A stretch of DNA of 44,355 bases, taken from the NCBI GenBank assembly GCA_945902115.1, contig CAMDLY010000017.1:1-44355 (forward strand). The letters run 5' to 3'. The DNA comes from Lishizhenia tianjinensis. Lineage in GTDB: Bacteria > Bacteroidota > Bacteroidia > Flavobacteriales_D > Crocinitomicaceae. Each line of letters starts with the position of its first letter. Position 1 is the stretch's first letter. Under the pieces are notes generated by a model. The model saw nothing but the letters and a program-made list of their open reading frames with translations, was not told the DNA's origin and searched no databases. A program made the translations under genes and the position numbers. Positions 7,907 through 19,902 of the stretch are shown here, piece after piece.

Positions 7907-9583
7907 CTAATTGAAACGAATAGATTTTACAGGAGAAATGCGTGTAACCACCAAACTCGGAATCACCAACGCCAAAAGACACACAGCCACCGTAAGCGAA
8001 TTTATCCACAGGAGATTCAACCACGAAAAATTAATAGGCACGGCATCCAGGTAGTACACCGCAGGGTCTAAGGAAAAAACCTTTCCTTTCAGTTGCAGAA
8101 AGCATAAGCCAACGCCCACAACATTGCCTATCAGCAAGCCCTTAACGATTAAATACCCGGCTTCATACACGAAGACTTTACGAATCGACCAATTGCTTGC
8201 CCCCATAGCTTTCATAATACCCACAAAATTGGTGCGTACCACAATAATGACTAAAATCGCCGACCCCACATTGATGATTCCGATGAGTAACATCAGCGTA
8301 ATAATGATGTAGACATTTACGTCAAGAAACTCCAACCAGGCGAACAAATCGCTTTCTGCTTCTTTTACCGTAGTGACTTGAGCAATGCTCCCGTAGATAT
8401 CGGGTTTCATTTGAAGTGAGGCCCCCACTTTTCCGGCTACCAAATCCATTGAATTAAGGTCTGCTATCCCCATCTCATATCCTGAAATCATCGCCCCCTC
8501 GGCAAAAGAAGCGTTTTCTGTGTTAATCGTTAACCACGAGGATTTTCCCGTTCTTATATCAAAACAGCCATTGGAAAATTCAATGGGTAGCTCACCACCC
8601 GTCGCCAATTCGGAAATACGCTCCAAGCCCTCCCACTCAAATTTCAGGGTTAAGGTATCCGATTCTAACATTCCCTGCTCATTTTTTGTGCGGGCAATAA
8701 CTTCTACTTCTGCCGGACCTCCGATCTCCCAATTTACCTTATCAGTTGCGGGTATTCCATTCCAAAAATACTGCACCTCTTGGTTGCTTCTATTGGCTAC
8801 CGCTTCCAATTGTAAAGAGCCATTTTCTGCCAAGGTAGGATATACCTCAAGTCTAACACTGAACTGCAGACCACTCACCTCTTGTAGATAGCTCAGGGAA
8901 GTAAAGACCAGCTGTTGGTCGTAATCACCAAAGCCAGTATCGAAAATACCTGCTACGATGAAATCGCGTTTTACCGCACGGTTAGAGGTGAAAAAAGAGG
9001 CCAGCACGGTATCTCCTACGTGGTAATTTAAGTTTTTTGCAATATGCTCAGATAAAATCAAGGCATTCATTTTATCTTTTTTAGGAATCTCACCTTTCAC
9101 CAAATGCTGTTTGATAAATGACCAATTATAGGTTTCATCGACTCCTTTCATCAACACTCCTGCAATTTCTTGTCGGATAATCGTTGTGTCTTTGCCTGTA
9201 GCCAGCTTGACTTTATCATTGAATTTCTTGGACTGTAAAATGCTTGGGCGATACAACACAGGAGCTGCCGATGTAACCCCGTCATGGCTTTTCAAGGTTT
9301 CCTGCATCAAACGTGAATAGCGTATTGGCTCAGATTCAAAAATACGTATCTTCTGTTCAGGTTGGTCTGGATTGATTTTTGATACGAAAAGTGGAGCGGT
9401 GAAACCCATCGCTTTTTCTCTTACCTCGTTTTGAAAACCTGTAACGATTGCTATAGAGATTAAGTTAACAACAATTGCTAGTGAAATACTTACAATGGAG
9501 ATGCGTACGATAGGTCTAGAAACTTTTTTACCTTGCGTATTATTTTTCGTGAGACGACGTGATATGAAAAACTCAAATGACAC
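7907..9583 (-). CDS. LolC/LolE-like ABC transporter permease (FtsX family) with large periplasmic insertion
   Basis: This 558-residue inner-membrane permease opens with FFISRRL and a first membrane helix at about 22-50. The three-helix FtsX-like domain fills about 410-558, with the typical segments GIMKAMGAS, IVKGLLIGN and a closing ISPVKSIRFN. In the family, such permeases pair with an ATPase to move lipoproteins (LolCDE) or drive periplasmic work; no ATPase gene is adjacent. It is about 140 residues longer than usual, and the extra part (about residues 225-365) is beta-rich periplasmic sequence. Its start is GTG at 9583, inside the opposite namZ reading frame. No upstream alternative is needed, because MSFEFFISRRL matches family N-termini. 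Confidence 0.85.
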   Translation of the reverse strand: MSFEFFISRRLTKNNTQGKKVSRPIVRISIVSISLAIVVNLISIAIVTGFQNEVREKAMGFTAPLFVSKINPDQPEQKIRIFESEPIRYSRLMQETLKSHDGVTSAAPVLYRPSILQSKKFNDKVKLATGKDTTIIRQEIAGVLMKGVDETYNWSFIKQHLVKGEIPKKDKMNALILSEHIAKNLNYHVGDTVLASFFTSNRAVKRDFIVAGIFDTGFGDYDQQLVFTSLSYLQEVSGLQFSVRLEVYPTLAENGSLQLEAVANRSNQEVQYFWNGIPATDKVNWEIGGPAEVEVIARTKNEQGMLESDTLTLKFEWEGLERISELATGGELPIEFSNGCFDIRTGKSSWLTINTENASFAEGAMISGYEMGIADLNSMDLVAGKVGASLQMKPDIYGSIAQVTTVKEAESDLFAWLEFLDVNVYIIITLMLLIGIINVGSAILVIIVVRTNFVGIMKAMGASNWSIRKVFVYEAGYLIVKGLLIGNVVGVGLCFLQLKGKVFSLDPAVYYLDAVPINFSWLNLLWINSLTVAVCLLALVIPSLVVTRISPVKSIRFN

Positions 9584-10859
9584 TGTAATCCTTTTTACCT
9601 TTCAAAGGTACGCAAAGGTTCTTTGTCTGTATGTCTTTTTCACAATTTTGCTCGCTAGCTGCGGGAGGTATGACGTAAAAACTCCTTCTGTTGTTGGCGA
9701 TATCCAATTTGTCCGCGACTCCATAGAACAGAAAAATGCAGTACCCAAAAAACCGCAAGTAAAGCCCATTCAACCGGCAATAGAACGCTTCTCGTTGTAT
9801 CTTGACTCCCTAAGTGGGAAAAGAATCGCCGTTGTTGCCAATCAAACTTCCGTGGTAAAAAACAGCCACCTAGTAGACACGTTGCTTGCGATGAAATTTC
9901 AAGTTGTGAAGGTTTTTAGTCCCGAACATGGCTTTCGAGGAGATGCCGACGCAGGGGAGCGCGTGAACAGTACCGTGGATGAGAAAACAGGTATTCCCAT
10001 TGTTTCTTTGTATGGCAACAATAAAAAGCCCTCTGTCGCGCAACTGTCCGACGTAGATATAGTGATATTCGATATTCAAGATGTCGGGATACGTTTCTAC
10101 ACGTTTATTTCGACGCTGCACTACGTTATGGAGGCCTGTGCTGAAAATAACAAGAAACTCATTGTATTGGACCGCCCAAACCCAAATGCTCACTACGTGG
10201 ACGGCCCCGTATTGGAAACGAGATATAAGTCGTTCGTGGGCATGCACCCTGTACCTATCGTTTACGGCATGACGATTGGCGAATATGCGAAAATGATTAA
10301 CGGAGAGGGCTGGCTCGATAACAAAAAAAAATGCGATTTACTCGTAATTCCGTGTAAAAACTACACACACAAAACACGGTATTCTCTGCCCATAGCGCCT
10401 TCTCCAAATCTGAAGTCAGATGTTGCCATTGCCCTCTATCCAAGTCTATGTTTTTTTGAAGCAACAACGATAAGTGTTGGGCGAGGCACAGATCGCCCCT
10501 TCGAGTATTTCGGACATCCACGCTTTCCAAAACTCGATCATTCCTTTACTCCCGAGCCAAAAGTGGGTGCCAAAAGCCCTATGCACAAATACAAACTTTG
10601 CCAAGGATTTGACTTGTCGAAGTCTCAAGTAAAAAGAAACTATGAGTTGAACCTCAACTACCTCATTCAAGCTCGTGATTTATTGGGAGACTCTGCCGTA
10701 TTTATCGATCAAAATTTGTTTTTCAACAGATTGGCGGGAACAGCGACCTTAAAAGAACAATTGTATAAAGGGTGGAGTGCACAAGAAATAAAAGAAACGT
10801 GGAGGCCTGGGCTCAGCAGTTTTATGGAAACACGAAAAAAGTACCTGATCTATCCTTAA
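9564..10859 (+). CDS. namZ: Exo-beta-N-acetylmuramidase NamZ (DUF1343), lipoprotein
   Basis: The product has 431 residues from the ATG at 9564. A longer frame from 9495 would run far into the opposite permease gene and lacks a signal-like N-terminus. Residues 18-33 are hydrophobic and end in a lipobox, LLASC, so it is probably a lipidated periplasmic or outer-membrane protein. Family landmarks follow in order: VVANQTSVV, FSPEHGFRG, GIPIVSLYG, IFDIQDVGIRFYTF, VLDRPNPN, PIVYGMTIGEYA, PSPNLKSD and SVGRGTDRPFE. NamZ (GH171) removes MurNAc from the non-reducing end of peptidoglycan fragments, so it would feed cell-wall recycling, as anmK at 16016 does. Its first 20 bases overlap the divergent permease start. 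Its stop abuts the purE stop. Confidence 0.9.
   Translation: MKNSNDTVILFTFQRYAKVLCLYVFFTILLASCGRYDVKTPSVVGDIQFVRDSIEQKNAVPKKPQVKPIQPAIERFSLYLDSLSGKRIAVVANQTSVVKNSHLVDTLLAMKFQVVKVFSPEHGFRGDADAGERVNSTVDEKTGIPIVSLYGNNKKPSVAQLSDVDIVIFDIQDVGIRFYTFISTLHYVMEACAENNKKLIVLDRPNPNAHYVDGPVLETRYKSFVGMHPVPIVYGMTIGEYAKMINGEGWLDNKKKCDLLVIPCKNYTHKTRYSLPIAPSPNLKSDVAIALYPSLCFFEATTISVGRGTDRPFEYFGHPRFPKLDHSFTPEPKVGAKSPMHKYKLCQGFDLSKSQVKRNYELNLNYLIQARDLLGDSAVFIDQNLFFNRLAGTATLKEQLYKGWSAQEIKETWRPGLSSFMETRKKYLIYP
9603..9610 (-). promoter_or_regulatory. -7 box of the permease-Smr operon
   Basis: TACCTTTG on the minus strand matches TAnnTTTG and ends 19 bases before the GTG start of the permease. It lies inside the signal-peptide coding part of namZ. 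No convincing -33 TTG was found. Confidence 0.35.
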
Positions 10860-11339
10860 TTAAAGCGATTTTCCGCTATCTAATACGTTTTGTTTCATTT
10901 CTTCGGCATACAACGAGAGTTTTTGCTGAATATCGGGTCGGTAAGCACCCACAATTCTCGCAGCTAAAATGCCTGCATTTTTTGCGCCATTCAAGGCTAC
11001 TGTGGCAACAGGAATCCCATTGGGCATCTGCAGAATACTCAAAATAGAATCCCAGCCATCTACAGAATTTGACGACTTTACGGGCACCCCAATGACCGGA
11101 AGCGTGGTTAAGGAGGCTGTCATACCTGGTAAATGAGCGGCACCTCCAGCGCCCGCAATGATCACTTTCAATCCTCTGTCGGCAGCACTTTTTGCGTATT
11201 CTACCATTAATTCTGGCGTGCGGTGTGCAGAAACAATAGAAATCTCGTTGGAAATCCCGATTTCATCCAAAAAATCTTTCGCCGCCTGCATTACCGGCAT
11301 GTCAGACTTACTTCCCATAATGATACCTACTTCAATCAT
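10860..11339 (-). CDS. purE: N5-carboxyaminoimidazole ribonucleotide mutase
   Basis: The protein has 159 residues, the normal class I PurE length. The N-terminal MGSKSDMP motif, SAHRTPE and the [11 protein letters not shown] loop form the active site that moves the carboxyl group of N5-CAIR to make CAIR in purine synthesis. It starts with ATG inside the last codons of the upstream tat gene (8-base overlap), so translation is probably coupled. It converges with namZ, with no base between the two stops. Confidence 0.97.
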
Positions 11340-11724
11340 TTGACTTTTTTTCTTCGTTTTTATTATTTTCCTCTGCTTGTTGTGCGTTACCAGCGGTCAC
11401 AACCGCCCTCGGGGTACTTAAAACCGGGTCGTAATTTACTGCATTGTCAACATCAGTAAATACTTGATCCAAAGGACGTTGTATTTCCTCAGTAGTTTCT
11501 TTCAAAAAACTGTCCAAGTTTAAATCCCCTTTTATATCACCACCGCTATTTTTGATTTCTTGCTTAATTTCATTAGTAGCATTTCGAAATTCAAATAAAG
11601 CTTTTCCTAATGATTTTGCGATACCTGGAATGCTTTTAGAGCCAAAAAACAAGAGGATAACAAGGAAAATGACGAGAATTTCACTGCCTGCTACATCATT
11701 CAAAAAAAGCGTCGGCCATATCAT
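11332..11724 (-). CDS. Twin-arginine translocase subunit, TatA/TatB family
   Basis: The 130-residue protein has one N-terminal membrane helix (about 14-31: [15 protein letters not shown]) followed by the TatA/B hinge and an amphipathic helix ([19 protein letters not shown]). A long charged, disordered tail reaches the C-terminus, ending in Glu/Lys/Asn-rich sequence. TatA/B proteins form the pore or receptor part of the Tat pathway for folded proteins. The tail is longer than in a minimal TatA, so a TatB-like role is possible. A perfect -7 box ends four bases before the ATG. It overlaps purE by 8 bases. Confidence 0.85.
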
Positions 11725-11728
11725 TGGT

Positions 11729-11757
11729 CAAAATTACGACAATATTCACAGCCTCCA
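11729..11757 (-). promoter_or_regulatory. Promoter of the tat-purE pair
   Basis: On the minus strand, TTG (11757-11755) and TAATTTTG (11736-11729) are 18 bases apart, a full -33/-7 match. The -7 box ends four bases before the ATG at 11724, which places the transcript start at or next to the start codon. Confidence 0.5.
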
Positions 11758-11773
11758 AGGTTCTTGACATTTT

Positions 11774-12550
11774 TTACATTTTTTGAACCCTGAAAATAAT
11801 TGCTGCCTGCCATCTTTTTGGAATAAAAGGAAGTAAAAAGCGCAGTGGAAATACCAAGGGGTAATCCGAGATGAAAATCACTTTTTTTCTTTCCATGGCG
11901 CGGTACCCACGTTCTGCGGTCAATTTCGCAGACATAGCCTGATCAAAGAGCTTCCCCCCTTCCATGCCAGCCACCTTTTCAAACTCCGTTTTAACGGGAC
12001 CGGGACAAAGTGCTGTGACAGAAATACCTGAGTCTTTAAGTTCATACGCTAATGCTTCGGTGAACGACAACACAAAAGCTTTGGTAGCAAAGTATGTAGC
12101 TTGCCATGGCCCAGGAAGAAATCCAGCAGTACTCGCGGTATTAAAAATGTAACCACTCCCGCGAGATTTCATGCCAGGAATTAGTGCATGCGTCAATTCA
12201 ATTAGAACCTTGATGTTTAAATCCACCATGTTTGAGTTTCTGGCAATTTGGCTATCAGCAAAAAGTCCAAAGGCCCCAAATCCTGCATTATTCATTAATA
12301 CATCCACGTGTATGCCTTGCTCTTCGGTGAAGCGAATAAGCTTGGGGATAGCACCGCTCTCGGTTAAGTCAATGGGGAAGATGCACACGGCAATGCCATA
12401 ATCCCGAATCAAGAAATCTTTAAGCTCCTGCAACTCTCTCTCTCTGCGTGCAATCAATACTAGATTACCTCCTTTACGTGCGTGAACAATCGCTAGTTCT
12501 TTTCCGATACCACTCGAAGCTCCCGTAATTAATGCCCATTTATTTTTCAT
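11774..12550 (-). CDS. Short-chain dehydrogenase/reductase (classical SDR)
   Basis: The 258-residue protein has the Rossmann NADP-binding motif TGASSGIG near residue 9, NNAG at about 90, and the catalytic set Ser (NTAST), Tyr-x-x-x-Lys (YFATK, about 154-158) and PGPVKTEF. An Arg-Arg pair after the second strand (ARRERE) suggests NADP(H). Classical SDRs of this DltE/YqjQ-like type reduce carbonyl groups of unknown substrates, and nothing nearby fixes the substrate. The C-terminus has a hydrophobic stretch (YPLVFPLRFLLPFIP) that may touch the membrane. It is transcribed alone and has a -7 box next to its ATG. Confidence 0.9.
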   Translation of the reverse strand: MKNKWALITGASSGIGKELAIVHARKGGNLVLIARRERELQELKDFLIRDYGIAVCIFPIDLTESGAIPKLIRFTEEQGIHVDVLMNNAGFGAFGLFADSQIARNSNMVDLNIKVLIELTHALIPGMKSRGSGYIFNTASTAGFLPGPWQATYFATKAFVLSFTEALAYELKDSGISVTALCPGPVKTEFEKVAGMEGGKLFDQAMSAKLTAERGYRAMERKKVIFISDYPLVFPLRFLLPFIPKRWQAAIIFRVQKM

Positions 12551-12554
12551 TTTT

Positions 12555-12562
12555 CAAATGTA
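12555..12562 (-). promoter_or_regulatory. -7 box of the SDR gene, adjacent to ATG
   Basis: TACATTTG on the minus strand is a perfect TAnnTTTG and ends four bases before the ATG at 12550. No clear -33 element was seen. Confidence 0.4.
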
Positions 12563-12638
12563 TGAATCAAAACTCTATGTTTTTGAGTTTCTCCGAAATG
12601 ACGTATCCTTAAAATCTTTTTTTGTCGAGAGAATATTC

Positions 12639-12646
12639 TATTTTTG
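12639..12646 (+). promoter_or_regulatory. -7 box of the tandem membrane-protein operon, adjacent to ATG
   Basis: TATTTTTG is a perfect TAnnTTTG and ends six bases before the ATG at 12653. A TTTG at 12621-12624 is the nearest -33 candidate, but the spacing (14) is short. Confidence 0.4.
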
Positions 12647-12652
12647 TTACAT

Positions 12653-13252
12653 ATGCCTAAAAAAATTCTTTTCTTATTAGTAGTTTCTCTCGAAGGCGGT
12701 GCCCTATTGTCCTATGAAATTATGGCGGCAAAATTGTATACGCCACATGTTGGTTCAACATTGTATGTGTGGACATCTATTTTAACACTTACACTTGTCT
12801 CCTTGGCACTTGCCTATAAAACCAGTCAATATTGGTCGGATAAAAAAGATTGGAAAATATTGCCTATTTGCCTGCTCATCGCGGGACTTTATTTATTGTT
12901 CATTTTGTTTACAAAAGAAAGTGTTTTGCCCCTAACATATACGATGGGAATTAAGACTGCTTCTATTTTCACGGGTGTATTTATTTTGTCGATCCCGGTA
13001 TTTTGTATGGGCCTGACATCACCGCTTGTCACCGCTTTACTCTCAGAGGTGAAAAGCTCACAGGGAAATACGGGGAAAAATGCTGGTTTGGTATATGGTA
13101 TCGGAACGCTTTCTGGTATTGTCTTTACACTACTTTGCCTTTTTCTTTTATTGCCTATCGTAGGCGTTTCAGTGACAATTGCCTTGCTATCCCTGATGTT
13201 ACTTATTGCGGCCGGAATTTCCTTTTGGCTTTTAACATATCGACATGACTAA
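12653..13252 (+). CDS. Polytopic membrane protein, paralogue of the membrane half of the next gene
   Basis: The 199-residue protein has about six membrane helices. It starts at the ATG at 12653; a TTG nine bases upstream falls inside the -7 box and is unlikely. It shares with the next protein an opening LEGxxLxxE motif in helix 1, a downstream WTSILTL or WATLIML helix, a helix with SPLVTALL or TPIFISEL, and the loop plus helix LVYGIGTLSGIVFTLL versus TLYAFSTWGGILFTLL. In the MFS/spermidine-synthase-like family these helices form the membrane domain. Here they stand alone without any methyltransferase domain. It overlaps the next gene by 8 bases. The two products may form a heteromer. Function unknown. 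Confidence 0.8.
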   Translation: MPKKILFLLVVSLEGGALLSYEIMAAKLYTPHVGSTLYVWTSILTLTLVSLALAYKTSQYWSDKKDWKILPICLLIAGLYLLFILFTKESVLPLTYTMGIKTASIFTGVFILSIPVFCMGLTSPLVTALLSEVKSSQGNTGKNAGLVYGIGTLSGIVFTLLCLFLLLPIVGVSVTIALLSLMLLIAAGISFWLLTYRHD

Positions 13253-14819
13253 ATGGATAGTATTCTTCTTAGCATTTTTAGAGGGTTGCATAGTGATGAC
13301 CTTGGAGCTTTCAATCCCTCATGTATTATCTCCTGTGTTGGGAAATTCCATCAATACATGGGCGACGCTCATCATGCTTTCCGTTGGCGGACTTGCTATC
13401 GGATATTTTTTGGGAGCATACCTTTGTGCTAAAAATAAATCAACTGCACTCCTGGTGCTAACTCTCAGCATTTCTTTTCTGGGCCTGATCACCTTACTTA
13501 TAGTAGACTCTACAAACTCTGGAAGTCTACTTCAGGATGAAATTAGCTCCGCCTATATCACGGCAATTATAGGTTTATTTTTGCCGAGTATTTTTTTAGC
13601 AGCGACCACCCCCATTTTTATCTCTGAACTATCGGCCACTAGCTCAAATGCAGGTACACTTTACGCATTCTCGACTTGGGGAGGGATATTATTCACTTTG
13701 TTGACAGGCTTTGTATTTATTCCAGATTATGGGTTGATAAAAACCTTGCAAATCGCTACATTTTTATCCACTGTCATGGCAGCCATTATAGCCTATTTTC
13801 CGGGTGGACGAACGCGCTACCTCAGCTACGGCGCCTTAGGAATGGGATGTATTTCCTTCGGGATTGGGACATTTTCCTTGAAAGAAACGAATAATCTTAA
13901 ATTGCTGGAATTAAAAGAAGGCTTGAATGGTCAGGTAATGGTTGTTGAATCAGCAATCAATGATTCTACCGTGGATCGCACCTTGTTTATTAACCGCATG
14001 GGGCAAACGTGGGTGCGAATTACCAACGGCAACAGCATGGCTTCTCTGTGGTCGTATCCTGGCATCCTCAAGTCATTGGCAAGTTGTCACGGCAAGAAAC
14101 CTTCAACAGCGCTAATTCTGGGCCTTGGAGGAGGAATTGTTCCGCTTTTTTTATCCGATAAACAGAACCTAAACTATACGATTGATGCCGTTGAACTCGA
14201 TCCTGACATTATACGATTTTCCAAAGAATATTTCTCTTTACCCGACGACATACACGTGATTCAAGACGATGCACGAAGAGTACTTAACGCAAATAAGAAC
14301 GCATATGATTTGATTGTCATGGATATTTTCAATGGCGAAATCGCACCCTCACACGTGTTGAGCGTGGAGGCGTTCGAGCAGGTCAAAAAAGCACTTTCCG
14401 ACAGAGGAATAGTGATTATTAATTTTAATGGAAACATCACAGGGGAAGCAGGTATTTCTGGTAGATCCTTGTATAAAACGCTTATTCACGCAGGGTTTCA
14501 AGTACAGATGCTTCCAACTTTTGAAGAAGGTGAGCGCAACAGAAACAATTTGTTTGTTGCCACATTAAAACCTTTAGACTTAGAGAAAAAGATGACTATT
14601 CCTATCACCTACTTCAAGAATGGCGAGCTTCAGAACTACGGTATCAAACAGAATCTCTTTAATTTTAAGACAGTAGACTTAACGGATGCATGGGTAATCA
14701 CGGACGAGTTTCCAATGATGGAACAAATCAATCAACTCGCGGCACGCCAATGGAGAGAGGATTACCTAAAAAATATAACGCTGAAATACAGAGATCAGGG
14801 TATACCCCTTATCAAATAA
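13245..14819 (+). CDS. Membrane protein fused to a spermidine-synthase-like methyltransferase domain
   Basis: This 524-residue protein has about seven membrane helices (residues 1-215) followed by a soluble Rossmann methyltransferase-like domain (about 230-500). The nucleotide-binding loop ALILGLGGGIVP, acidic VELDPD, QDDARR and DLIVMDIF are those of the spermidine synthase superfamily. The polyamine-site region after DIF (NGEIAPSHVLS) differs from true spermidine synthases, so aminopropyl transfer is uncertain. Fused forms of this kind are widespread but mostly uncharacterised. It overlaps the preceding paralogous membrane gene and ends 3 bases before the convergent acyl-CoA dehydrogenase. 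Confidence 0.85.
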   Translation: MTKWIVFFLAFLEGCIVMTLELSIPHVLSPVLGNSINTWATLIMLSVGGLAIGYFLGAYLCAKNKSTALLVLTLSISFLGLITLLIVDSTNSGSLLQDEISSAYITAIIGLFLPSIFLAATTPIFISELSATSSNAGTLYAFSTWGGILFTLLTGFVFIPDYGLIKTLQIATFLSTVMAAIIAYFPGGRTRYLSYGALGMGCISFGIGTFSLKETNNLKLLELKEGLNGQVMVVESAINDSTVDRTLFINRMGQTWVRITNGNSMASLWSYPGILKSLASCHGKKPSTALILGLGGGIVPLFLSDKQNLNYTIDAVELDPDIIRFSKEYFSLPDDIHVIQDDARRVLNANKNAYDLIVMDIFNGEIAPSHVLSVEAFEQVKKALSDRGIVIINFNGNITGEAGISGRSLYKTLIHAGFQVQMLPTFEEGERNRNNLFVATLKPLDLEKKMTIPITYFKNGELQNYGIKQNLFNFKTVDLTDAWVITDEFPMMEQINQLAARQWREDYLKNITLKYRDQGIPLIK

Positions 14820-14822
14820 AGA

Positions 14823-15965
14823 TTATGCGTTCAAAATACCTCGAGAAATAACTATTTTCTGCACTTCGCTGGTGCCTTCATAGATTTGTGTGATTTTCGC
14901 ATCACGCATCAAACGCTCGACGTGATATTCTTTCACAAAACCGTATCCTCCATGAATTTGAACTGCTTCCACAGATTGCTCCATAGCTACTTTCGAAGCA
15001 TATAACTTCGCCATGGCGGAAGATTGATCGTAATTTTTTCCGGTATCTTTATCGAGGGCAGATTTATACACCAATAAACGCGCAGCTTCCACCTCAGTGG
15101 CCATATCTGCTAGTTTAAACGCGATAGCCTGGTGTTTATATATTTCTTTTCCGAAGGCCTTGCGTTGTTTTGAATATGCCGTTGATAACTCCAAGGCACC
15201 TGCGGCGATACCTAGGGCCTGTGCGGCGATACCAATTCTTCCTCCGGATAGTACTTTCATCGCGAACTTAAATCCAAAGCCGTCTTCTCCGATTCTATTT
15301 TCTTTAGGAACTTTTACGTCATTGAACAACAAGGTATGGGTGTCACTTCCGCGAATTCCCAACTTATCCTCTTTCGCTCCCACGATAAACCCTTCCATTC
15401 CGCGCTCTATTATTAACGCATTAATTCCTTTATGACCTAATTCTGCATTTGTCTGGGCAATTACTAAATAAACTGATGCCGAGGACCCGTTAGTAATCCA
15501 ATTTTTCGTTCCATTCAGTAAGTAATGATCACCTTTATCGATTGCCGTGGTGCTTTGCGAAGTAGCATCTGATCCAGCTTCCGGCTCCGACAAACAGAAA
15601 GCGCCTATTTTCTCACCTGTTGCCAGTGGAATAAGGTATTTTTGTTTTTGCTCTTCTGTTCCAAATTTTTCCAAACCCCAACATACCAATGAATTATTCA
15701 CAGACATACAGACAGATGTTGACGCATCAACCTTGGAAATTTCTTCCATCGCCAATACGTAAGACAAGGTATCCATTCCACTGCCTCCGTACTTTGGATC
15801 TACCATCATACCCATGAATCCTAGTTCCGCCAATTGTTTAATTTGCTCCTCAGGAAATTTCTGCAAATTATCTCTTTCAATAACGCCAGGTTTCAATACA
15901 TTCTGTGCAAAATCACGAGCCGCTTCCTTCACTGCAAGATGTTCCTCTGTTAATTCGAAATTCAT
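14823..15965 (-). CDS. Acyl-CoA dehydrogenase
   Basis: The 380-residue protein has the normal length for short/medium-chain acyl-CoA dehydrogenases. It shows the two family signatures: AFCLSEPEAGSDA (FAD/substrate loop, about 122-134) and QIHGGYGFVKEYHVER (about 335-350). The catalytic Glu is in IYEGTSEVQ near the C-terminus. It would oxidise an acyl-CoA to the trans-2-enoyl-CoA with FAD, passing electrons to ETF, in fatty-acid or branched-chain amino-acid breakdown. It is monocistronic, divergent from anmK, with promoter boxes that overlap those of anmK. Confidence 0.95.
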   Translation of the reverse strand: MNFELTEEHLAVKEAARDFAQNVLKPGVIERDNLQKFPEEQIKQLAELGFMGMMVDPKYGGSGMDTLSYVLAMEEISKVDASTSVCMSVNNSLVCWGLEKFGTEEQKQKYLIPLATGEKIGAFCLSEPEAGSDATSQSTTAIDKGDHYLLNGTKNWITNGSSASVYLVIAQTNAELGHKGINALIIERGMEGFIVGAKEDKLGIRGSDTHTLLFNDVKVPKENRIGEDGFGFKFAMKVLSGGRIGIAAQALGIAAGALELSTAYSKQRKAFGKEIYKHQAIAFKLADMATEVEAARLLVYKSALDKDTGKNYDQSSAMAKLYASKVAMEQSVEAVQIHGGYGFVKEYHVERLMRDAKITQIYEGTSEVQKIVISRGILNA

Positions 15966-15981
15966 GGTCTAGGTTTTTAAT

Positions 15982-15989
15982 TAATTTTG
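15982..15989 (+). promoter_or_regulatory. -7 box of anmK
   Basis: TAATTTTG is a perfect TAnnTTTG, 26 bases before the GTG start of anmK. It lies face-to-face with the opposite -7 box at 15991-15998. Confidence 0.4.
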
Positions 15990-15990
15990 A

Positions 15991-15998
15991 CAAAAATA
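15991..15998 (-). promoter_or_regulatory. -7 box of the acyl-CoA dehydrogenase gene
   Basis: TATTTTTG on the minus strand is a perfect TAnnTTTG ending 25 bases before the ATG at 15965. One base separates it from the anmK -7 box. Confidence 0.4.
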
Positions 15999-16015
15999 AT
16001 CCATTTTAGCCGTAA

Positions 16016-17101
16016 GTGAAAAAAAATAACCACGAGAAATTGCAAATAATTGGTCTGATGTCAGGAACATCGATGGATGGATTAGATATTGCCCTTTGTT
16101 CTTTCTATTTTAACGAGGACAGGGTCTCATTCTCCCTGTCTCATGCGAAAACCATTTCCTACCCAACTTCCTTGGAGTCACAACTTCGGCAGGCGACAGA
16201 ACTCAAAAGCGAGGATCTTTGCCTACTGGATAAAACTCTAGGCTTATATTATGCTGAGCAAGTGAATGCGTTTATGAAAGAATTTCATGTAGATCGTGCT
16301 GAAATCGACGCCATTGCCAGTCACGGACATACTATTTTCCATCAACCAGAAAAAGGCTTTACCCTACAAATAGGCTGCGGATCATCAATTGCAATACACA
16401 CAAAAATTCCTGTTATCAATGACTTCAGGACAAAAGATGTGCTCATGGGGGGTCAGGGTGCTCCGTTGGTTCCGATCGGTGATTTCGATCTTTTTGGAGA
16501 TCATGCAGATGGCTTTTTGAACTTGGGAGGATTTTCCAACATCAGCTTCAAAAAAAACGATGCCATTATTGCCTTCGATATTTGTCCTTGCAACTTACCC
16601 CTAAACACTTTTTCAGAAAAGTTGGGCTTTCCCTACGACAAGAATGGTGCACTTGCTGAATCGGGGCAGGTAGATGTAGATCAACTCCAACAATGGAATA
16701 GTTTGGCTTTTTACGAACAGGCAACGCCAAAATCTTTAGGAACCGAATGGCTTACCACCCAGTTTTATACACAAACGAAGCTTTCTCTTTCTCCTATAGA
16801 TTTGCTGAGCACAGGTGCCGAACACATTGCCATACAAATTGCAAAACAAATTGAATATCATCAGCTCAAGAAGGTGCTTATTACCGGTGGGGGGGCAAAA
16901 AACGCTTACCTTCTCGCTCGGCTTAGAAAGCATACAACAGCGGAACTCATTTTACCAGAAAGCAACTTGATTGAATTCAAAGAGGCCCTCATTTTTGCCT
17001 ACCTAGGAGCTTTGTTTTTACAAGGGAAACCAAATAATATTCCAAGTGTGACCGGCGCTAGAAATGCCGTTTGCGGTGGAGTGCGTCACGAAGCCTGTTA
17101 A
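16016..17101 (+). CDS. anmK: Anhydro-N-acetylmuramic acid kinase
   Basis: The 361-residue protein has the ATP-binding GLMSGTSMDGLDIA motif at residues 13-26, ASHGHTIFHQP around 104, NDFRTKDVLMGGQGAPLVP around 138-157, and LITGGGAKN near 300. AnmK opens the 1,6-anhydro ring and phosphorylates anhydroMurNAc to MurNAc-6-phosphate, a step of peptidoglycan recycling. Translation starts at GTG (16016); no in-frame ATG lies upstream of the MSGTS motif. Spacing from the divergent dehydrogenase is 50 bases. The partner etherase gene murQ is not in this window. Confidence 0.95.
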   Translation: MKKNNHEKLQIIGLMSGTSMDGLDIALCSFYFNEDRVSFSLSHAKTISYPTSLESQLRQATELKSEDLCLLDKTLGLYYAEQVNAFMKEFHVDRAEIDAIASHGHTIFHQPEKGFTLQIGCGSSIAIHTKIPVINDFRTKDVLMGGQGAPLVPIGDFDLFGDHADGFLNLGGFSNISFKKNDAIIAFDICPCNLPLNTFSEKLGFPYDKNGALAESGQVDVDQLQQWNSLAFYEQATPKSLGTEWLTTQFYTQTKLSLSPIDLLSTGAEHIAIQIAKQIEYHQLKKVLITGGGAKNAYLLARLRKHTTAELILPESNLIEFKEALIFAYLGALFLQGKPNNIPSVTGARNAVCGGVRHEAC

Positions 17102-17167
17102 AATCTTATCCACAACTCATATGTTGGTAATTCTTGTGAAAAAGAAGCGCGACATGGTTCTAATTTT

Positions 17168-17175
17168 TAATTTTG
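17168..17175 (+). promoter_or_regulatory. -7 box of the amino-acid dehydrogenase/nhaD/exbBD run
   Basis: TAATTTTG is a perfect TAnnTTTG ending 19 bases before the ATG at 17195. The short leader contains AAGGA, four bases before the start, one of the few Shine-Dalgarno-like sequences in the window. Confidence 0.4.
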
Positions 17176-17194
17176 TAAAGATTTTCAACAAGGA

Positions 17195-18427
17195 ATGAAA
17201 GACTTACTACAAAAATTTGAAGGAAAAAGACCTGAAATCGTATTCGAATGGAAGGATCAAGAAACGGAGGCCGAGGGGTGGGTAGTCATCAATTCTTTGC
17301 GCGGAGGTGCAGCAGGTGGAGGAACTAGGATGCGAAAAGGCCTGGACAAGCGCGAAGTAGAATCCTTAGCGAAAACAATGGAAGTGAAATTTACCGTTGC
17401 AGGCCCACCAATTGGTGGCGCTAAATCTGGAATTAATTTCGACCCAAAAGACCCAAGAAAAGAAGGAGTATTGAGAAGATGGTTTGCCGCGGTCTGTCCC
17501 TTGCTGAAGAATTATTACGGAACAGGAGGCGACTTAAATGTCGACGAGATACACGAGGTCATACCAATTACCGAAGATTGCGGTGTTTGGCATCCACAAG
17601 AAGGCGTTTTCAATGGCCATTTTCAACCCAAAGAATCCCAAAAAATCAACCGAATTGGCCAATTACGTCAAGGGGTATTAAAAGTTATCGAAGACCCAAT
17701 TTTTTCACCGGCTGTAGGTCGGAAATTTGTCGTTGCGGATATGATTACCGGATATGGAGTCGCTGAATCTATTCGTCACTATTATTCAATTTGGGGAGGA
17801 GACCTTAAAGGAAAAAAAGTCTTGGTTCAAGGTTGGGGAAATGTGGGGTCTGCCGCTGCTTACTATCTAGCACAAGAAGGTGCGATTATTATTGGTATAA
17901 TAGATAGAGTTGGAGGACTAATAAACGAAGATGGGTTTACCTTTGAAGAAGTTAAAACGCTCTTCCTCAACAAAAACGGAAACGAACTCTCAGCTCCCAA
18001 CTTACTGACTTATGAGGAGGTAAATAACCGCATCTGGTCCACGAAAGCCGATGTTTTTATTCCTTGTGCGGGAAGTCGGATGATAACTAAAGACCAATTG
18101 GATCAGATGATTGCAGGCGGAATAAATGTTATCTCATCTGGAGCAAATGTTCCTTTTGCAGACCCTGAAATATTTTTTGGGTCGATTGCCGAGCATGCAG
18201 ATGCGCACCTTGCCTTGATTCCAGATTTTATTGCCAATTGCGGAATGGCGAGGGTTTTTGCCTACCTAATGAGCAATGACTTGGTCAAAATTGAGGATGC
18301 CCAGATCTTTGAAGATACTTCTTTAACCATTAAAAATGCTTTGTTAAAAACACATAAAATAAACAAGCACGACCGAGGTATAGCAAAGGCGGCCTTCGAA
18401 ATTGCCTTGAATCAATTAATTTCTTAA
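17195..18427 (+). CDS. Glu/Leu/Phe/Val dehydrogenase family amino-acid dehydrogenase
   Basis: The 410-residue enzyme has the N-terminal dimerisation/substrate domain with GGGTRM (about 41-46), the substrate lysine in MEVKFTVAG (K65) and catalytic lysine in PPIGGAKSGI (K77). The catalytic Asp is probably in GTGGDLNVDE (D113). The C-terminal Rossmann domain has VQGWGNVGSAA around 206-216. The enzyme would reversibly deaminate an amino acid to the 2-oxo acid using NAD(P)H. The sequence does not show which amino acid; the divergent sequence around the loop suggests a non-glutamate substrate, without proof. nhaD starts 11 bases downstream, so the two are probably cotranscribed. Confidence 0.9.
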   Translation: MKDLLQKFEGKRPEIVFEWKDQETEAEGWVVINSLRGGAAGGGTRMRKGLDKREVESLAKTMEVKFTVAGPPIGGAKSGINFDPKDPRKEGVLRRWFAAVCPLLKNYYGTGGDLNVDEIHEVIPITEDCGVWHPQEGVFNGHFQPKESQKINRIGQLRQGVLKVIEDPIFSPAVGRKFVVADMITGYGVAESIRHYYSIWGGDLKGKKVLVQGWGNVGSAAAYYLAQEGAIIIGIIDRVGGLINEDGFTFEEVKTLFLNKNGNELSAPNLLTYEEVNNRIWSTKADVFIPCAGSRMITKDQLDQMIAGGINVISSGANVPFADPEIFFGSIAEHADAHLALIPDFIANCGMARVFAYLMSNDLVKIEDAQIFEDTSLTIKNALLKTHKINKHDRGIAKAAFEIALNQLIS

Positions 18428-18438
18428 TTCAATTTATT

Positions 18439-19902
18439 ATGCTACTTTTAATTTTTGCTGTTTTCGTTTTAGGTTATGTAGCGATAACCATGGAGCACAC
18501 GCTCAAAATAGACAAATTGATTCCTGCCCTGCTCATGATGGTGGCATGTTGGACGCTACTCATCTTGGGCGTTGACAACCTCGAAGTATGGTTAGATCCC
18601 GCCAAAGGCGTTATCCTTGGGAGCGACGGTGAATATACGGTACCAAAACTCATTGGTGACCATGAACACCGTGTAGATATGGTCAACGAAGCTTTACTAC
18701 ACCATTTTGGAAAAACTGCTGAGATTTTAATCTTCTTGATGGGTGCCATGGCAATTGTGGAAATGATTGACTATTTCGACGGTTTTGCCTCAATTAAAGG
18801 CATGATAAAAACAAGAAGTAAAGCAAAATTATTGTGGATCGTTTCCTTTTTAGCTTTTTTCCTTTCTTCCATTATCGACAACTTAACTGCAACCATAGTT
18901 TTGATTACAATTTTGCGAAAAATAGTGAGCAACCAAGAAGATCGCATGTGGTATGCTGGTTTTATTATTATCGCGGCAAATGCAGGAGGCGCTTGGACAC
19001 CAATCGGAGACGTTACCACAACTATGTTATGGATGGCTGACAAAGTATCTACGGGTGAACTTATTGGGCAACTTGGGCTACCTTCTCTGGTTTGTGTGTT
19101 GCTTCCGCTGATTGTCGGAAACTTTCTTCCGGCATTTAAAGGAGAAGTAGAAGTAGTGGAGGGAGAACAAACTAATCCAAATTCTAAGTTGATGCTCTAT
19201 TTAGGGCTATTTCTCATAATATGTGTTCCCGTATTCAAAACCGTCACGCATTTACCTCCATATCTAGGAATGATGTTGTCTCTCGCAGTATTTGCCATTG
19301 TAGCTGAATTCTTAAGCAACAAAGCTATCAACCTAACAGATTCAACAGATAGCCATGGTCACAGTGGACCAACGATGAAAGCATTAAGTAAAATTGAAAT
19401 GCCTTCAGTACTATTCTTTTTGGGAATTTTAATGACCGTTGCCGCGATGGAATCCGCTGGATTAATTTTTAATTTTGGTCAAGACGTGAAAAATGCAGGA
19501 ATTCCCGAAGGCGTTTTCGTAACCATGTTAGGTCTTGCCTCAGCAGTTATTGACAATGTGCCCCTCGTGGCTGCATCTATTGGTATGTTCCAAGAATCCA
19601 TGGATGCAGAAGTGTGGCATTTCATTGCATTCGCGGCAGGAACAGGAGGTTCCATACTCATTATCGGTTCGGCTGCAGGTGTTGTGGCCATGGGAATGGA
19701 GAAGATTTCATTCTTCTGGTACATGAAACGAATATCATTATTAGCAGCGTTGGGATATTTTGGTGGAATCGGAGTTTTCTTATTAATGCCTAAAAAAGAC
19801 CCAAGTAAATTAGAGAAAAAAGAAGATAAAAAACAAGTAGAAACAACTCACCATTCAAAATCCTTGGATATTAAATCAACCTATTTCGTTTCAAAAATTT
19901 AG
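18439..19902 (+). CDS. nhaD: Na+/H+ antiporter NhaD
   Basis: This polytopic inner-membrane protein of 487 residues has about 11-12 helices and belongs to the ArsB/NhaD ion-transporter superfamily. The SSIIDNLTATIV segment (about 148-159) is the conserved half-helix with the ion-binding Asp-Asn. A second inverted half has AVIDNVPLVAAS (about 366-377), as expected for the pseudo-symmetric fold. GGAWTPIGDVTTT follows the first half. It exports Na+ in exchange for H+. The C-terminal tail is hydrophilic and Lys-rich. It lies between the amino-acid dehydrogenase and exbB, 31 bases upstream of the latter. Confidence 0.92.
   Translation: MLLLIFAVFVLGYVAITMEHTLKIDKLIPALLMMVACWTLLILGVDNLEVWLDPAKGVILGSDGEYTVPKLIGDHEHRVDMVNEALLHHFGKTAEILIFLMGAMAIVEMIDYFDGFASIKGMIKTRSKAKLLWIVSFLAFFLSSIIDNLTATIVLITILRKIVSNQEDRMWYAGFIIIAANAGGAWTPIGDVTTTMLWMADKVSTGELIGQLGLPSLVCVLLPLIVGNFLPAFKGEVEVVEGEQTNPNSKLMLYLGLFLIICVPVFKTVTHLPPYLGMMLSLAVFAIVAEFLSNKAINLTDSTDSHGHSGPTMKALSKIEMPSVLFFLGILMTVAAMESAGLIFNFGQDVKNAGIPEGVFVTMLGLASAVIDNVPLVAASIGMFQESMDAEVWHFIAFAAGTGGSILIIGSAAGVVAMGMEKISFFWYMKRISLLAALGYFGGIGVFLLMPKKDPSKLEKKEDKKQVETTHHSKSLDIKSTYFVSKI

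Follow-up and report, generated by a model that had tools for sequence, protein, structure and literature searches.

A candidate gene-split form of the fused MFS/spermidine-synthase-like proteins in Lishizhenia tianjinensis

Two overlapping genes of Lishizhenia tianjinensis, located within a stretch of 44,355 nucleotides (contig CAMDLY010000017.1, referred to here as the window), may together encode a gene-split MFS/spermidine-synthase-like fusion, in which a single MFS bundle is made by two genes and carries a SAM-dependent transferase domain; we put the chances of this explanation being right at about even. Of the twelve helices in the bundle, gene 1 would supply the first six (1-6) and gene 2 the rest (7-12), the 8-base overlap of the genes would allow coupled translation, and the two proteins would assemble into one complex with the spermidine-synthase-fold domain of gene 2 sitting behind one extra helix. 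The domain is proposed to bind S-adenosylmethionine, not the decarboxylated form, and to pass a methyl (or aminocarboxypropyl) group on to a compound whose uptake, presentation or export falls to the MFS part. Support for this comes from the paralogy of the two membrane parts, a clade in which all ten members are paired, the fused homologues L010, L050 and L053, the MFS fold predicted for L053 and the lost signatures of dcAdoMet and polyamine binding, and also from the presence of METTL13 in all five match lists, the lack of AdoMetDC in the organism's own genome and a negative result for related fusions in the available text of PMC12803844.

Table 1. Positions of the gene pair and its parts in the window.
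Feature	Position	Strand	Description
Gene 1	12653..13252	+	199 aa; ATG at 12653, stop ends at 13252; membrane protein
Gene 2	13245..14819	+	524 aa; ATG at 13245, stop ends at 14819; membrane part and spermidine-synthase-like domain
Overlap ATGACTAA	13245..13252	+	8 bases; holds the gene 2 start and the gene 1 stop
Gene 2, residues 1-183	13245..13793	+	six helices in the structure model; read as MFS half 2
Gene 2, residues 190-206	13812..13862	+	extra helix (seventh of gene 2, thirteenth of the pair); short, weakly hydrophobic
Gene 2, residues 218-524	13896..14819	+	spermidine-synthase-fold domain (Pfam match, model, fold search)
Gene 2 cofactor loop LGLGGGI, residues 292-298	14118..14138	+	site of GGGDGG in spermidine synthases; acid missing
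Gene 2 MDIFNGEIAPSH, residues 359-370	14319..14354	+	replaces DSTDPVG; aspartate D360 retained

The coordinates of the two genes and their 8-base overlap (13245-13252) had been given correctly in the initial annotation. Because the flanking genes, assigned by reading their sequences as TatA-like and SDR-like upstream and acyl-CoA-dehydrogenase-like downstream, sit on the opposite strand, genes 1 and 2 look like a two-gene unit. The sequence TATTTTTG at 12639-12646, which ends 6 bases ahead of the gene 1 ATG, matches TAnnTTTG, which we take to be the Bacteroidota -7 box; with a -7 box this close to the start codon the gene 1 mRNA could be nearly leaderless. A NamZ-type gene (9495-10859) is located some 1.8 kb upstream of gene 1 and a homologue of it (L051:2452-3822) adjoins a lone form of the membrane-plus-enzyme protein, possibly reflecting an old common neighbourhood, and a TatA-like gene is close to the pair both in the window (11332-11724) and in L044 (3084-3416). 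Across window positions 8501-19000 and the 21 homologous loci described below, no protein was common to more than two loci, with the exception of one nine-member group; in the absence of a conserved partner, the attempt to deduce a function from gene neighbours was abandoned.

The proposal that gene 2 is a paralogue sharing the membrane part of gene 1 was borne out by BLASTP comparison of the two membrane parts (28% identity over 190 columns, E 2e-11) and by a profile-profile alignment of 11 gene-1-type with 18 gene-2-type proteins (probability 100%, E 6.3e-49, 192 columns). The accompanying idea of a duplication with one copy lacking the enzyme held in part: the two are duplication-derived paralogues, but gene 1 corresponds to the N-terminal half of the MFS protein in the fused forms (L010, L050, L053) and does not resemble a copy deprived of its enzyme. 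Both proteins scored above the curated cut-off of 40 bits for the NCBIfam model NF037959, 'fused MFS/spermidine synthase' (gene 1, 55.4 bits; gene 2, 137.8 bits). The C-terminal part of gene 2 matches Spermine_synth (PF01564; 33.5 bits, cut-off 22.9) and is the only PF01564 match in its own genome at E <= 0.001; gene 1 gave no Pfam match over cut-off. The gene 2 chain has a membrane half and a spermidine-synthase domain together, as do NF037959 members, and the placing of the other membrane half on gene 1 is a variation inside this family. Among 395 genomes of the phylum, the NF037959 model had matches in at least 125, at least 62 of them over the cut-off, and gene 1 was matched in three: in its own, and in two others as part of longer frames (515 and 851 aa). 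Nine membrane NF037959 members from the phylum matches were read whole, with helices judged by simple hydropathy: the six long ones (847-1,029 aa) combine the enzyme domain with roughly two six-helix halves and a single additional helix, and the other three (503-510 aa) combine it with seven helices.

Within the window's GTDB family the occurrence of gene 2 is patchy, with matches in 15 of 150 genomes, including one of the 18 other genomes listed for the same genus. A gene-1-type gene adjoins the gene-2-type gene in 8 of these 15 (the organism's own genome, G000, and G014, G034, G049, G136, G140, G143 and G147). G014 also has a fused form of 740 aa (L010) and G068 one of 865 aa (L014); three genomes (G020, G042 and G135) have a lone membrane-plus-enzyme protein and no second match at E <= 1e-5, G047 and G070 matched in the enzyme domain alone, and in G130 the locus is cut by the end of the contig. 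In G136, which belongs to the same genus, the order of the pair is reversed, the membrane-plus-enzyme gene coming first (L009:1423-3714), and both members sit in branches of the tree other than those of the window. G034 carries two pairs back to back in tandem (L018:825-3618 and L026:893-3012) and, elsewhere on the same contig, two more pairs, L012 and the convergent L028.

A scan of named genomes, which shares seven contigs with the family set and so is not independent of it, gave 21 loci: nine overlapping pairs, eight lone forms, two fused forms (L050, 766 aa; L053, 761 aa), one truncated locus (L058) and one distant one (L060, 822 aa). The overlaps of the pairs L040-L048 are 10, 4, 11, 14, 14, 11, 14, 14 and 8 bases, a range of 4-14 bases across these nine clade relatives of the window pair, and in L041 gene 2 extends past the contig end. 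Counting the window, gene 1 was located directly upstream of gene 2 and overlapping it in all 10 members of gene 2's clade, and the heteromeric membrane protein suggested in the initial annotation is likely. That suggestion had been tied to conservation of the pair and its order among relatives, which was found inside the clade; outside it, at 8 of the 21 loci, all in other branches, the first gene is absent beside gene 2 homologues. Since these loci encode lone forms, gene 2 might act alone, which counts against our explanation. Two of the lone relatives share a 549-aa upstream protein (L049:2331-3980 and L055:2337-3986), which touches or runs into their start; it had no Pfam match at 0.01 and is perhaps a dedicated partner in that branch.

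An unrooted tree was built from 48 membrane halves, with fused L014 omitted, and has several long branches. For the 10 rows of the window clade, the gene-1-type halves grouped together (100/97), as did the gene-2-type halves (100/100), and the branching within the two groups was similar, not identical. Of the fused protein L010, repeat 1 grouped with the gene-1-type (88/87) and repeat 2 with the gene-2-type halves (96/93) of other pairs, and repeat 1 of L050 and L053 grouped with the gene-1-type member of L009 (96/93). This grouping of fused repeats with paired halves indicates that the duplication predates the window's clade and that switches between the paired and fused states probably happened more than once. 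The gene 2 half has diverged strongly in the window clade (stem 1.81); a lysine in TM1 is absent from it in 10 of 10 clade members and is kept in 8 of 8 lone forms and in 11 of 11 gene-1-type proteins, with L042, outside the latter set, having arginine.

The structure predicted for gene 2 (pLDDT 86.2, pTM 0.83) has seven helices followed by a mixed domain. In a fold search with gene 2 alone, spermidine synthases filled the list and there were no MFS rows among the matches listed. For the fused homologue L053 (pLDDT 83.1, pTM 0.83), residues 15-433 matched whole MFS transporters, the best being VMAT1 (8tgg_A; Z 32.0, rmsd 3.6, 353 aligned), and the best 50 rows had Z scores of 27.5-32.0. The 12-helix MFS fold of two six-helix halves is thus present in the predicted structure of a natural fused homologue. 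The model of L053 rests on an alignment of gene-2-type rows and two fused rows, as MAFFT did not place gene-1-type rows on repeat 1, and the first repeat is covered by just two sequences. Assigning a transport substrate from the MFS match was given up, as the VMATs, 6zgs (with 3-phenylpropanoic acid bound) and OxlT fall within about 1-2 Z units of one another. The complete MFS fold in L053 is the central, if indirect, evidence for regarding genes 1 and 2 as halves of one MFS bundle: on this model, the first MFS half most likely comes from gene 1 and the second, together with the enzyme, from gene 2, making a transporter split over two genes. Gene 1, with helices 1-6, is read as MFS half 1 with both its N- and C-termini predicted inside, the loop charges being part of the evidence.

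Spermidine synthases are the closest whole-domain folds to the domain of gene 2, with 1uir_B matched over the domain length (Z 22.6, rmsd 3.6, 266 aligned) and 3gjy close to it (Z 21.8, rmsd 3.5, 251 aligned); METTL13 (5wcj), a methyltransferase structure solved with SAH, gave Z 16.3, rmsd 2.3 and 176 aligned. The ranking of these folds ahead of methyltransferases counts against reading the domain as a SAM-dependent transferase. In sequence matches of gene 2, 3gjy came first and METTL13 second. METTL13 was among the matches of all five proteins tried, lower in the other four lists and never first, and the latter point, like the presence of AdoMetDC in 10 of the 15 genomes, also counts against that reading.

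Active-site residues were compared in 25 gene-2-type and lone proteins, a set that omits L003-L008 and L013 (from the same contigs as loci among the 21), with residues matched through a profile alignment to the Plasmodium spermidine synthase. Q254, D342 and D360 were kept in 25 of 25, and position 317 was E or D in every one. The acid of GGG(D/E)G(G/A), which binds dcAdoMet according to the available text of PMC11107197, is G or A throughout, gene 2 reading LGLGGGI; YHE was found at the aligned place in none of the 25, and DSTDPVG is replaced in all by D-x-x-x-(G/N/S)-E. The earlier suggestion of an altered polyamine-binding region was therefore upheld, since both the dcAdoMet-binding acid and the polyamine-pocket signatures are absent from every aligned protein. 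Of 20 stand-alone homologues fetched from the phylum, three were examined, and these three keep YHEML, GGGDGG and DSTDPVG. D360, E365 and a C-terminal D487/P490/E493 pattern are strongly conserved, and the METTL13-type GxGxG loop (LGLGGG in gene 2) and the acid after the second strand (E or D at 317) are present. From these residues, the domain of gene 2 is probably a SAM-dependent transferase.

In the organism's own genome, which is 99.94% complete, no AdoMetDC (PF02675) was found; an unrelated source of dcAdoMet is possible. This genome also had no PF01916 protein (the deoxyhypusine/homospermidine-synthase family) and its best nspC match was far under cut-off (28.5 versus 409 bits); two PF02784 decarboxylase-family proteins were over cut-off. 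AdoMetDC occurs in 10 of the 15 gene-2-matching genomes, including 5 of the 8 pair-bearing ones, and is also missing from the pair-bearing G136 and G147, so that the pair neither requires nor excludes it. According to the available text of PMC12803844, a fungal membrane-protein/APT-like fusion has homologues in bacteria that were reported, from experiments, to play no part in making spermidine or spermine, and the isolated fungal APT-like domain produced neither compound. Spermidine synthesis was dropped as the main reading in view of the missing AdoMetDC, the lost motifs and this negative for related fusions.

The loops of the membrane part bear on the side of the membrane at which the enzyme domain lies. 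K and R were more frequent in presumed-inside than in outside loops in 25 of 25 gene-2-type proteins (means 2.81 versus 0.32). Around the extra helix, net charge was higher before than after it in 22 of 25, equal in 2 and lower in 1; for K+R alone the 25 aligned proteins gave 16 higher before, 6 equal and 3 lower. This helix is 17 residues long in gene 2 and 15 in L053, and its hydrophobicity in gene 2 (1.42) is the second lowest of the 25. In a wider sample of 57, K+R before the last helix was higher in 29, equal in 7 and lower in 21, counts that we give no weight either way since the last helix was misplaced in rows with just 5, 6 or 12 segments. Cysteine content was tried and discarded as a guide to siting (0.57% in 57 membrane-linked domains versus 0.68% in 20 stand-alone ones). 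In the MFS topology helix 12 ends inside; with one more hydrophobic helix and the loop and net charges, this leads to the reading that the domain sits at the outer surface of the inner membrane. If the loop charges are taken literally, the domain would be on the external side, a location in which no SAM would be expected, and this counts against our explanation. The fuller version of the outer-face reading, a self-supplying extracytoplasmic SAM-dependent transferase to which the split MFS delivers SAM or the acceptor, or from which it exports the product, we hold to be unlikely.

Were there no joint bundle, gene 2 would pair with itself in a homodimer, in the manner of the lone forms, leaving gene 1 as a separate small transporter or modulator. 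That a half with its enzyme can suffice is suggested by the lone relatives without a second match (G020, G042, G135), and in G034 one gene-1-type gene and the gene next to it run towards each other (L028). Against this, pairing holds throughout the clade with similar branching of the halves, the fused forms join exactly gene-1-type to gene-2-type halves, and the gene 2 half has diverged and lost its TM1 lysine in all ten members, as if no longer pairing with itself; we consider separate action of the two proteins quite improbable.

The identity of the enzyme domain also allows other readings. A domain that acts as a genuine aminopropyltransferase, using dcAdoMet to make spermidine or to aminopropylate some other acceptor, would account for the spermidine-synthase fold and first sequence matches, for the catalytic-type aspartate D360 kept in all 25 proteins, and for AdoMetDC in two-thirds of the matching genomes (10 of 15), but this identity appears very improbable given the lack of AdoMetDC in the almost complete own genome and in G136 and G147, the loss of the dcAdoMet-binding acid from every aligned protein and the published negative for related bacterial fusions (available text of PMC12803844). 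The retention of nucleoside-side residues (E or D at 317, D342) with an altered acceptor side, in a domain tied to a transporter fold, would also suit a non-catalytic sensor of SAM, MTA or a polyamine that gates the MFS transporter; the conservation of D360, E365 and D487/P490/E493 exceeds the needs of a domain that only binds, and we regard such a sensor as unlikely.

If the explanation of a two-gene MFS bundle with a SAM-dependent transferase domain is true, the pair would be a natural case of an MFS transporter divided over two genes, one half of which bears an enzyme. With the lone and fused versions found in the same lineage, it would provide a ready-made series for how two-half transporters arise. 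The name 'spermidine synthase' should then not be taken to mark a polyamine gene in genomes of this kind, and the membrane side of the enzyme domain becomes a clean, testable question across the whole family.

A duplicated membrane unit that occurs alone, as a pair or fused is also known from small multidrug transporters with paired genes, such as MdtJI, and from the DUF606 family; unlike the window pair, these have other folds and no attached enzyme domain. A split MFS-spermidine-synthase pair was not found in the literature among the matches listed, and is not addressed in the available text of PMC10407285 and PMC7857480. AAN56744.1, the 7TM-spermidine-synthase-like protein of PspA operons (available text of PMC11237479), and the bacterial membrane-protein/APT-like fusions (Li et al. 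2019, cited in PMC12803844) resemble gene 2, as far as the accessible portions of these sources go, in having a transporter-like membrane part followed by a spermidine-synthase-like domain, but they are described there in operons with PspA, DUF350 or AdoMetDC, whereas the window pair has no conserved partner and its genome no AdoMetDC. Corynebacterium glutamicum spermidine synthase 3gjy (a structural-genomics name) and METTL13 (5wcj) are like gene 2 in lacking the GGGDGG acid in the alignments listed; neither chain matched the gene 2 membrane part, and METTL13 is a eukaryotic methyltransferase. The closest likeness is to the NF037959 fused MFS/spermidine synthases, as both proteins are over the cut-off of that model and the six long members read have two halves, a further helix and the enzyme. 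Such fusions are already known; the gene-split form, with its two MFS halves on two overlapping genes, is new as far as the literature listed goes.
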